NCBI GenBank assembly: GCA_947632015.1
Contig: CANRNP010000014.1
Span: 1 to 35,480 of the forward strand
DNA: 35,480 nt
Direction: 5' to 3'
Source: an uncultured Clostridia bacterium
GTDB lineage: Bacteria > Bacillota > Clostridia > Christensenellales > Borkfalkiaceae
Shown here: positions 28,129 through 35,326 of the stretch, piece after piece
Numbering within the stretch: position 1 is the first letter of the stretch
How the letters are laid out: every line of letters starts with the position of its first letter
Program-made: the position numbers and the translations under genes
Notes under the pieces: generated by a model
The model's database searches: none
What the model was told of the DNA's origin: nothing
The model's input: the letters and a program-made list of their open reading frames with translations, nothing else

Positions 28129-29317
28129 CTTTATCAAAACGATCCCCATGAAATTGTACCTGATTCTGCTCGCGATCGTCCTCTTCTCCTTCTTTTCCAA
28201 CGATTTCGGGCTCGTGGACATCCAAAAGACGGCGATCATCCTCGCCGCCGGCATCGACAAATCGGAAAAAGGGTTCACGCTCACCGCGCAGATCGCCGTG
28301 CCCAAGGGGAGCGACCGCGCGCAGGGCGGGACTTCGAGCGTGGAGATCTCCGCGGAAGGAGAGACCGTTTCCGACTGCGTCTCCCTCATCTTCGGCAAGA
28401 CGGGCTGGGTGCCCAAGCTCGTTTTCTGCGACCTCATCGTCCTCGGCGAGGACGCGGTGAAGGAGGATACCGTCTCCTATCTCAACTATTTCCTGCGCAA
28501 CGAATATATGCCCGACAACTGCCTGCTCGCCGTCTGCGAAGGGAAGGCGGAAGAGCTCATCTCCTCAAAGAGCGCCATCGACGACGCCTCTTCGCTCGCC
28601 ATCGAGAAACTCTTCTCCGACGCCGCGGAAAAATCGGGCAAAGTGATGACGAACACGCTGAAAGATTTTGCGATCGGCTATTACGGCGTCTCCGAGAGCA
28701 GCTATCTCCCCTTCATCCGCATGACCCCGCAAAAGGGTTCCCAGCAAGCCGAAGGCGGAAGTTCGGGCGGAGGTTCGGGCGGCTCCGCGGGCGGAAGCTC
28801 CGGCGGGGGCGAAGAGGAACAGATTTACAGCGCGGAGGAGACGGCGATCTTCCTCAAAGGGAAAATGGTGGGGCTTCTCTCCGCCGAGCAGACCCTGGCG
28901 CTCTCCCTCCTCGAAGGGAATGTTTACGCGGGCACGTTTACCGCGAAAGACGGGGAACGACCGGTGACGCTCACCGTGTTGCGCAACGAAGGCGGGGTAT
29001 CGCTCGGCATGAAGGGGGCGCCGAAGGCGAAACTCACCGTAAGCGTGATGGCGCGCCTGTGCTGCCGCGGGACGACCGCGCCCATCGAAGATATTTCTTC
29101 CGACGCCGTTTCCCCCGAAATTCTCGAAAGCGCCAAAGAGGTGCTCACGGGCTACCTCAACGGGCTGTGGGAGGTGTGCAAGCAGACGAAGTGCGACCTG
29201 CTCGAACTCAAAAAGTCCCTCTACCGTTCCTCGCTGAAAAAATACGGGGAATGGAAAGATTATCTGCTCGACGCCGTCACCCCGGAGATCGTTGCCGAAG
29301 TGAATACCCTGAAATGA
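28115..29317 (+). CDS. gerAC: Spore germination protein, GerA C-subunit, no lipobox
   Basis: The 400-aa C subunit of the receptor. The order gerA-B-C, the N-terminal segment FGLVDIQKTAIILAAGIDKSEKGFTLTAQIAVP and the C-terminal domain with LLEGNVYAGTF and VTPEIVAEV place it in the Ger(x)C family. That family is normally a diacylglycerol-modified lipoprotein with Cys-Trp-Asp after the signal peptide. Here no Cys occurs before residue 88, so it must be held by an uncleaved N-terminal helix (about 13-29). Residues 207-235 form a Gly/Ser-rich linker between the two domains. AAGGAG precedes the ATG. Confidence 0.88.
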   Translation: MTARNFIKTIPMKLYLILLAIVLFSFFSNDFGLVDIQKTAIILAAGIDKSEKGFTLTAQIAVPKGSDRAQGGTSSVEISAEGETVSDCVSLIFGKTGWVPKLVFCDLIVLGEDAVKEDTVSYLNYFLRNEYMPDNCLLAVCEGKAEELISSKSAIDDASSLAIEKLFSDAAEKSGKVMTNTLKDFAIGYYGVSESSYLPFIRMTPQKGSQQAEGGSSGGGSGGSAGGSSGGGEEEQIYSAEETAIFLKGKMVGLLSAEQTLALSLLEGNVYAGTFTAKDGERPVTLTVLRNEGGVSLGMKGAPKAKLTVSVMARLCCRGTTAPIEDISSDAVSPEILESAKEVLTGYLNGLWEVCKQTKCDLLELKKSLYRSSLKKYGEWKDYLLDAVTPEIVAEVNTLK

Positions 29318-29357
29318 CCGCGAAAAAAAATTCCTCAAAAAATTTTTCCGAAACCGC

Positions 29358-29385
29358 TTGACAAAAGAAAAATATGTGTTATAAT
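29358..29385 (+). promoter_or_regulatory. Sigma-A promoter of the ger-spoIIE intergenic RNA
   Basis: TTGACA (29358-29363), 16 bp, TATAAT (29380-29385): both boxes match consensus exactly. It starts 41 bp after gerAC, so the RNA is transcribed independently of the sporulation-specific ger operon and should be abundant in vegetative cells. Confidence 0.9.
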
Positions 29386-29446
29386 GAAGGCACAAAAGGA
29401 AAATAACTTCCAAAAAATGTTACTTTCCAACAAGGAGACCACTCCA

Positions 29447-29464
29447 ATGGACAGGATCGTCTGA
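29447..29464 (+). CDS. Micro-ORF 1 (5 codons) in the intergenic RNA
   Basis: Reads MDRIV and stop. AAGGAG lies 9 nt upstream of the ATG, ideal for translation. However GGAG can pair with CTCC (29442-29445) in a small hairpin, so the SD-like string may be structural. No homology can be judged at this length. Confidence 0.25.
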   Translation: MDRIV

Positions 29465-29570
29465 AAAACCGCAATCACACCCTTTACACGGACGGAAAAG
29501 TTCGCATCGCAGGGAGACCGTTGAGGCGGTAAGGTCTTCGAAAAAACATCATATCGGGAGGTACGACGAT

Positions 29571-29603
29571 ATGAAAAATTCCCGGCACTTGAAGATCAAG
29601 TAA
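29571..29603 (+). CDS. Micro-ORF 2 (10 codons) in the intergenic RNA
   Basis: Reads MKNSRHLKIK and stop, a basic decapeptide. GGGAGG is 9 nt upstream. An 8-bp perfect hairpin (29549-29556/29567-29574) would hold the SD in its loop and the ATG in its stem. This could gate translation, or could mean the element is not translated at all. Confidence 0.3.
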   Translation: MKNSRHLKIK

Positions 29604-29618
29604 AAGGAGGACACACCG

Positions 29619-29651
29619 ATGTACTATTTATCCCAAGGGGCGGAAAAGTAA
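29619..29651 (+). CDS. Micro-ORF 3 (10 codons) in the intergenic RNA
   Basis: Reads MYYLSQGAEK and stop. AAGGAGG, the best SD in the region, is 8 nt upstream and begins right after the stop of micro-ORF 2, as in an operon. The codons overlap bases predicted to form the long-range helices of the RNA, so translation and folding would be mutually exclusive. If the RNA is purely structural this ORF is coincidental. Confidence 0.3.
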   Translation: MYYLSQGAEK

Positions 29652-29785
29652 CTCCACTGAAAAAGACGCGCGGCGGGCAGGCATGCCGCATCGGGAACGA
29701 GTCCCGTAAATAAAGTCGAGTTACTCCGAAAAAGGACGAGAAGGTCCGAAGTACGGCTACCCGACACAACTGAATGAGAGGATCG

Positions 29786-29819
29786 CCCTCCGTACGCGGT
29801 ACGGAGGGTCTTTCTTTTT
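29786..29819 (+). terminator. Terminator of the intergenic RNA
   Basis: Arms CCCTCCGTAC (29786-29795) and GTACGGAGGG (29799-29808), 10 bp with a three-base loop, followed by TCTTTCTTTTT. Clear intrinsic terminator. Confidence 0.92.
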
Positions 29820-29844
29820 GCGCAAAAGCGCCCTTTCCTCTCTC

Positions 29845-29853
29845 TTCGACAAA
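29845..29853 (-). promoter_or_regulatory. Spo0A box upstream of spoIIE
   Basis: TTCGACAAA is the reverse complement of TTTGTCGAA, a full match to the 0A-box core TTTGTCGAA. It lies about 41 bp upstream of the TATAAT at 29894-29899. Direct activation of spoIIE by phosphorylated Spo0A is established in Bacillus and seen in clostridia, so a site at this position makes functional sense. Confidence 0.65.
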
Positions 29854-29893
29854 CAAAGACGGAAACTCCCCTCTCTCGCCCCGCCGTTGCCTT

Positions 29894-29899
29894 TATAAT
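29894..29899 (+). promoter_or_regulatory. -10 box of spoIIE
   Basis: TATAAT with no recognisable -35 at 16-18 bp, as expected for a Spo0A-dependent sigma-A promoter. Transcription would begin near 29906, which rules out the ATG at 29898 as start codon. Confidence 0.6.
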
Positions 29900-29924
29900 G
29901 AGGAAAAACGATACCGAGGTGACT

Positions 29925-35234: not shown

Positions 35235-35326
35235 GCAGAAGTACCCAAGAGGCTCAAGGGGCTCCCCTGCTAAGGGAGTAGTATCAGAGAATGGTAGCGC
35301 GGGTTCGAATCCCGCCTTCTGCGCCA
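35235..35326 (+). tRNA. tRNA-Ser (anticodon GCU)
   Basis: Full class II tRNA with CCA encoded. Acceptor arms GCAGAAG (35235-35241) and CTTCTGC (35316-35322), discriminator G and CCA 35324-35326. The anticodon stem CTCCC/GGGAG encloses CTGCTAA (anticodon GCT, reading AGC/AGU). A long variable arm follows, as in serine tRNAs, then the T-arm GCGGGTTCGAATCCCGC. No defect is seen. Confidence 0.97.

Follow-up and report, generated by a model that had tools for sequence, protein, structure and literature searches.

Conserved tandem micro-ORFs in an independent structured RNA of Clostridia, a candidate for action through ribosome engagement

The transcription unit, its context and its distribution

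The DNA analysed, referred to here as the window, is a 35,480-nt stretch from a Clostridia bacterium (GCA_947632015.1, contig CANRNP010000014.1). A complete transcription unit was located on its forward strand at 29358-29819, running from promoter to terminator between two sporulation gene clusters, with GerABC-like genes before it and a SpoIIE-like gene after it (protein names given by reading, without a family search); the RNA is about 430 nt long. The promoter (29358-29385) consists of TTGACA, a 16-nt spacer and TATAAT preceded by TG, giving 12 of 12 consensus matches, and its -35 hexamer and TG were invariant across 74 relatives in alignment A1. The same alignment revealed a conserved 5' leader (29392-29431) with a hairpin of 29398-29407 and 29419-29428. 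At the other end, the intrinsic terminator (29785-29819) is formed by a stem at 29785-29809 and a T-run, and ahead of it lies a conserved tag, ACAACTGAAT (29766-29775), which had been missed in the first-pass annotation; tag-like sequences were found in 98 of 124 unique RNAs with a loose pattern allowing several alternatives. No sense ORF of at least 40 aa was found wholly within the RNA, one plus-strand frame starting at 29774 in the 3' tail. These results are in accordance with that annotation, which had described a sigma-A promoter, a strong terminator and the lack of a long ORF. The fold energy of 29392-29819 gave a z of -2.52, with 2 of 100 shuffles equally good. Antisense ORFs of 56 to 136 codons lie over the RNA in 12 cases, that of the window included, and are likely by-products of the purine-rich sense sequence. 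With its consensus promoter, its terminator and a leader present in 236 of 398 family genomes, the RNA is a real, independent unit.

The position between ger and spoIIE had been read as tying the RNA to sporulation. Among 61 loci of the genus, ger and/or spoIIE stand beside the RNA at 55, in its own direction at 38 and opposite to it at 17, with neither present within the fetched stretch at 6; spoIIE lies downstream in the same direction at 25 of the 61, the window included. At the loci inspected in genera g4 and g12 the neighbours, named by eye, are antiporter-, MreB-, Maf-, FtsH- or UvrD-like genes, and two g12 loci (L045 and L047) adjoin GerC-like genes. As the RNA occurs in both orientations beside ger and spoIIE and has differing flanks in g4 and g12, it is no conserved leader of spoIIE; the link to sporulation is weak, being positional only. 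The region upstream of spoIIE (29849-29900) carries a TATAAT, not listed as a promoter by the promoter scan, and TTCGACAAAC, which we take to resemble a Spo0A box; TTCGACAAACAAAGACG recurs in some relatives.

In the 398 genomes of the family the RNA was present in 190 by blastn and in 236 by R1, a sequence-only model trained on the promoter and 5' leader of 74 copies (E<=1e-7). The R1 matches cover 127 of 197 good genomes, 6 of 18 genera and, counted from listed rows, 95 of the 103 genomes of the window's genus. A single match occurred in 217 of the 236 genomes, and two or three in the other 19; the additional matches were inspected in two of these, G229 and G166. Genome G229 (contamination 4%) carries a second true copy (L243, G229:C36) with three micro-ORFs of its own and the tag TACAACCGAAT, and a further extra match (L244) is cut by a contig end. 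At L242 (G166:C30), the additional match of G166, and at L082 (G139:C19) a different purine-rich RNA, beginning GGCACAACAAGGGAG and without the micro-ORF layout, stands behind a similar promoter and is possibly a second RNA of the genus.

Across the order, strong full-length matches were confined to the family; the rest were weak and mostly promoter-like, with E of about 1e-6 to 1e-3. A pattern scan of genome contigs gave at least 80 stretches, with titles of Clostridia, Clostridiales or Eubacteriales, and Candidatus Gallimonas or Candidatus Coproplasma among the matches listed. A phage or viral origin was rejected, as blastn to phage records gave no match and the exact pattern occurred 0 times in viral contigs. 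Ten weaker matches in genera g2, g8 and g9 were inspected by eye. Micro-ORFs and tag were both present at L232 (g2) and L231 (g8), and the g9 loci L119, L227, L228, L233 and L234 showed leader-like starts and micro-ORFs, with no tag seen by eye. Only the common promoter and a few nucleotides of the leader recur at the g2 loci L229, L230 and L120, which may represent another RNA; they have a shared block of their own, CTGTACAGGG, accompanied in L229 and L230 by CGGAGTCTCAGCGGTAA, with no Rfam match. At the g9 loci L233 (G262), L228, L234 and L119, micro-ORFs like M-x-A-stop are followed a few nt later by an apparent compact H-type pseudoknot, CCUCC..GGAAC..GGAGG..GUUCC, of which three tandem copies occur in L233 and eight modules in all; paired changes seen by eye are CCAUCC/GGAUG in L234 and GGGAC/GUCCC in L119.

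Tandem micro-ORFs and covarying helices

Three SD-led micro-ORFs, overlooked in the first-pass annotation, start at 29447, 29571 and 29619 and read MDRIV, MKNSRHLKIK and MYYLSQGAEK. SD1 (29432-29437) precedes ORF1 (29447-29464). SD2 (GGAGGT, 29557-29562) lies in the loop of a hairpin (29550-29573, arms 29550-29556 and 29567-29573) whose 3' arm holds the ORF2 start codon, and ORF2 (29571-29603) ends in a terminal hairpin of its own (29587-29592 with 29596-29601). SD3 (AGGAGG, 29605-29610) stands immediately past the ORF2 stop codon, and ORF3 (29619-29651) is the last frame.

The 195 loci collected were reduced to 178 with the leader by pattern, 124 unique in the first 250 nt and 98 with the 3' tag by the loose pattern. 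The frame tests cover only the 53 RNAs to which all three anchors fit, leaving out 71 of the 124; two of its members, L106 and L147, depart from the genus type. The patterns were ATG or GTG then TAC for ORF3, YCCVATG for ORF1 and CCR before the start for other last ORFs, and since these letters were demanded by the search they are no evidence of conservation.

ORF1 is 2-11 codons long with a median of 3, the corresponding values for the two alternative frames being 22 and 24; ORF2 has 8-14 codons (10-12 in 43 of 53 RNAs) and ORF3 exactly 10 in 44 of 53. The gap from the ORF2 stop codon to the ORF3 start is 15 nt in 45 of 53, and the spacing of ATG2 and ATG3 is a multiple of 3 in 48, that of ATG1 and ATG2 being spread over the three frame classes as 17/20/16 (multiple of 3 in 17). 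ORF3 codons 3-7 held 0 in-frame stops, compared with 41 and 12 in the other frames, per 265 codons each. SD-led ATGs numbered 2.5 per RNA in the 98 tagged RNAs; dinucleotide-shuffled sequences had 0.48 and the reverse strand 0.03. The frames range from 2 to 15 or so codons and were found in at least five genera. The unit is duplicated in some relatives (L061, with MH and MY, L037 and L040), and in L071 and L075 ORF2 and ORF3 are fused by a change of the start ATG to ACG. In these two loci (in genomes G137 and G156, respectively) three micro-ORFs precede the fused frame, namely MCT, MHN and MTM in L075.

As expected of a dual-function sRNA, the ORFs are kept in frame in the 53-RNA set, and they are judged to be very probably translated. 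The pN/pS ratio was 0.57 for ORF2 (18 independent pairs, 69 differences) and 0.77 for ORF3 (23 pairs, 98 differences), and the ORF3 differences fall on the codon positions as 33/29/36. Values below 1 leave room for a weak peptide constraint; judged from these comparisons, the peptides drift while the reading frames stay conserved, and the conservation is not mainly one of amino acids. The second codons of ORF1 and of the last ORF (starts 29447 and 29619, and relatives) are mostly NAC, that is UAC, AAC, GAC or CAC. Codon 2 of ORF1 was NAC in 42 of 53 RNAs, and that of the last ORF, where the pattern did not impose it, was UAC in 30, AAC in 13 and GCA in 1 of 44 RNAs outside the set, and UAC in 16, AAC in 6 and GCA in 1 of 23 from g4 and g12. 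The NAC codon box comprises the codons read by queuosine tRNAs.

Alignment A2 had misplaced the 3' strand of P1; base pairs were therefore never counted on it, and reliance was placed on alignment-free own-versus-cross tests, which compare how well a strand complements its own partner and partners taken from other RNAs, by permutations that ignore relatedness. The sample at genus level was 37 non-redundant tagged RNAs from the 53-RNA set. P1 (29647-29657 with 29715-29725), the 5' strand of which holds the ORF3 stop codon, gave z 8.5, the SD2 hairpin z 7.1, the ORF2 end hairpin z 5.9 and the leader hairpin z 4.9, each with 0 of 2000 permutations as good. Lower values were obtained for the hairpins P2 (GCGGC/GCCGC, 29670-29689; z 2.4, 17/2000) and P3 (CGGGA/TCCCG, 29692-29706; z 2.3, 26/2000). 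The minimum-energy and centroid folds both contain P1 (9 of 11 pairs), P2, P3, the SD2 and ORF2 hairpins and the leader hairpin (9 of 10 pairs). Three pairs of segments used as negative controls gave z -0.8, 1.0 and 0.0. Pairing of SD1 with CUCC was weak in the 37 RNAs (z 1.9, 65/2000), a helix around ORF1 spotted by eye (ACUCC...GGAGU) was unsupported (z 1.2, 259/2000), and mid-region hairpins gave z -0.1 (1040/2000) and 0.7 (480/2000). RNAalifold on MAFFT segments returned zero structure (0.0) for the leader and ORF1 segments. The first-pass annotation had proposed two long-range helices that cross; 29647-29654/29718-29725 holds as part of the covarying P1, and 29625-29630/29707-29712 was rejected (z 0.0, 1032/2000 as good). 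Of the two findings which that annotation had named as refuting its view, a lack of covariation in the long-range helices and conservation at the amino-acid level alone, neither was obtained.

The end of the last micro-ORF also pairs with the 3' end of the RNA, forming a helix, P0, that closes the 3' domain P1-P3. In the window its 5' strand (29637-29643, assigned by homology) lies inside ORF3, 29638-29643 pairing with 29757-29762. Support for P0 was modest in the window's genus (z 2.5, 15/2000, 37 RNAs); it reached z 8.3 (0/5000) in 46 non-redundant RNAs outside the 53-RNA set, a few of them from the window's genus, and z 5.6 (0/5000) in 23 RNAs of g4 and g12. Changes on both strands keep P0, as they do P1, examples being GAGGTC/GACCTC, TGAAATC/GATTTCA, AGAGGTTT/AAACCTCT and GGAATT/AATTCC. 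In the window's own RNA, P0 has one C.A mismatch and 0 of its 6 pairs occur in the minimum-energy or centroid fold, which speaks against a strong lock in this species. Compensatory changes were thus found in P1, the SD2 hairpin, the ORF2 hairpin and P0, against a null that does not include kinship.

The geometry of P0 was analysed in 84 non-redundant RNAs, 40 from the 53-RNA set and 44 others (at least six of these from the window's genus), taking the A of the start codon as +1. An open search from +4 to +60 gave a helix above threshold in 77 of 84, with P0 starting at +17 to +21 in 60 of the 77 (16 of 19 in the g4 and g12 subset); shuffling the 3' strand left 232 of 836 helices in this interval, and the G-rich end of the ORF therefore accounts for some of the spacing signal. 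On narrowing the search to +13 to +36, P0 lay at +17 to +21 in 71 of 84, its strand being inside the ORF in 70 of the 71. Up to four Watson-Crick pair types then occurred per position (at +23, C-G 41, U-A 15, G-C 7 and A-U 1, with one U-G and three mismatches), counts which are inflated by the picking of the best helix, the permutation tests being unaffected. P0 lies at a more variable distance from the stop codon than from the start codon, the latter spacing being narrow. In bacteria the front of an initiating ribosome lies near +15/16, and P0 mostly begins just past this expected edge, 17-21 nt from the start codon.

Alternative readings and known RNAs

The frames may be read as a polycistronic message encoding bioactive micropeptides, be they signals, antimicrobial peptides or formyl peptides, the structure merely tuning translation. 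Their conservation, and the recurrence of the pieces LKIK, GLKI, MY..GAE and, in g12, RYF, would agree with this. However, the amino acids are almost as free to vary as the silent sites, LKIK and GAE fall in helices conserved among relatives, ORF1 is in some cases no longer than MH or MG, and the fusion of ORF2 and ORF3 in L075 indicates that separate peptide products are not needed; the reading is accordingly considered unlikely. Small RNAs with coding ORFs, as treated in PMC5521070, are comparable in their size and in having short frames under selection; the ORFs described there are of 10-50 aa and kept for coding, whereas the present frames are tandem, only 2 to 15 or so codons long, drift in their peptides and end with an ORF that forms a strand of the closing helix.

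Somewhat more improbable is a plain structured noncoding RNA, CsrB-like or an SD-only ribosome sponge, in which the micro-ORFs are by-products of purine-rich, SD-like sites for a protein or the anti-SD. It would account for the repeated GGA/GGAGG motifs, one of them in a hairpin loop, and for helices conserved across relatives. It is unsupported because the micro-ORF frames are conserved: a decoy needs no start codon, in-frame stop or codon-sized indels, and all three are kept.

Leader-peptide and uORF attenuators are well known, and in them the translation of a tiny ORF remodels the RNA structure, as it would here too; the geometry of P0 and P1 would suit such a remodelling. With this precedent, and with spoIIE downstream and co-directional at 25 of 61 genus loci, the RNA might act in cis as a leader, its regulatory uORFs controlling read-through into spoIIE or whichever gene follows. 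Such a role is very improbable, since a conserved downstream gene in the same direction was not found (17 of 61 opposite to ger/spoIIE, other neighbours in g4 and g12), the RNA has a strong terminator of its own, and a TATAAT, although unlisted by the promoter scan, precedes spoIIE.

The first-pass annotation had put forward a raiA-motif RNA, usually placed near raiA/comFC, as a candidate, and this identity was not borne out. In the Rfam search over the window no family reached the gathering score except a tRNA at 35235; relaxing the threshold to an E of 10 added five weak matches in 29300-29900, raiA not among them. Twelve loci scanned against Rfam 15 likewise gave only tRNA at gathering score. 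The raiA motif was found 0 times in the window's own genome and in 0 of 101 sampled family genomes, a separate search of the class with 12 of 79 serving as positive control, and the neighbours of the RNA are GerABC-like and SpoIIE-like genes instead of raiA/comFC. RNase P type A sits on contig C58, a full tmRNA match on C81 (138.5 bits, with none in this RNA) and a 6S-like RNA on C69 (45.4 bits against a cut-off of 46.4). In spite of its size, consensus promoter and sporulation neighbourhood, the RNA can therefore hardly be raiA-motif (ModT) RNA or another known housekeeping RNA. The description of an independent structured RNA of a possibly new class, made in the same annotation, gained support from the lack of an Rfam match, the RNA's own promoter and terminator, and the covarying helices.

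Some likeness to these RNAs remains. Like tmRNA (RF00023), this is a structured RNA with a short frame that would meet ribosomes. It shares with raiA-motif RNA, or ModT (RF03072), its independence, structure and occurrence in Clostridia, and differs in having no covariance-model match and in belonging to a family with 0 of 101 raiA genomes. The abundance of ModT is said to rival ribosomal RNA (PMC11706538), high abundance being hinted at here by the consensus promoter only, and the main text of that paper is without the words ORF or open reading frame, unlike the present micro-ORF RNA. No description of such an RNA was found in the open-licence PMC literature, an unnamed entry in the supplement of the human-microbiome RNA survey PMC8040213 being possible.

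Proposed engagement of ribosomes

The reading preferred here, at a probability of about 0.5, is that the RNA represents a new class, independent, probably abundant and probably trans-acting, that works by ribosome engagement. Ribosomes would load onto several tiny SD-led reading frames. The lambda bar minigenes, which consist of a start, one sense codon and a stop in a phage transcript, are similar in that two-codon ORFs with an SD engage ribosomes, but the present RNA is conserved, usually single-copy and chromosomal, with conserved helices. Towards its end, the coding sequence of the last micro-ORF would double as the 5' strand of P0, closing P1-P3 beside the tag AACUGAAU. At the start codon of this ORF, a ribosome in the act of initiation would fit just ahead of P0, and to advance further it would have to melt both P0 and P1. 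Whether the last micro-ORF is being translated would therefore decide the state of the 3' domain, closed with an idle or parked ribosome and open with an elongating one. The RNA might in this way read out, or tie up, initiating ribosomes: either they would park where the last ORF starts, or by passing through they would open the 3' domain and expose what lies near the tag, which may itself be a binding site. A scan for complements of the tag in the window and the tmRNA, 6S-like and RNase P loci gave a single exact complement, which lies in the window and is uninformative, and no target or partner.

The kept frame, the nearly free peptide, the coding strand in the closing helix and the placement of P0 together suggest that the function of the RNA lies in its being translated. 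A narrower version, put forward tentatively and more apt to be wrong than right, is that of a ribosome-parking RNA, whose conserved product would be translation initiation itself. The ribosome on the last ORF would be held against P0, and the RNA would store or count ribosomes in organisms where raiA was not found (0 of 101).

RNAs are usually sorted into coding and noncoding, and here the frames are apparently kept less for the sake of the peptide than for their being translated, the coding strand being at the same time the strand of a structural helix. If the proposed ribosome engagement is true, it would provide a natural RNA acting through ribosomes and a test bed for minimal ORFs, and it would explain why gene finders and RNA finders have both overlooked such loci.
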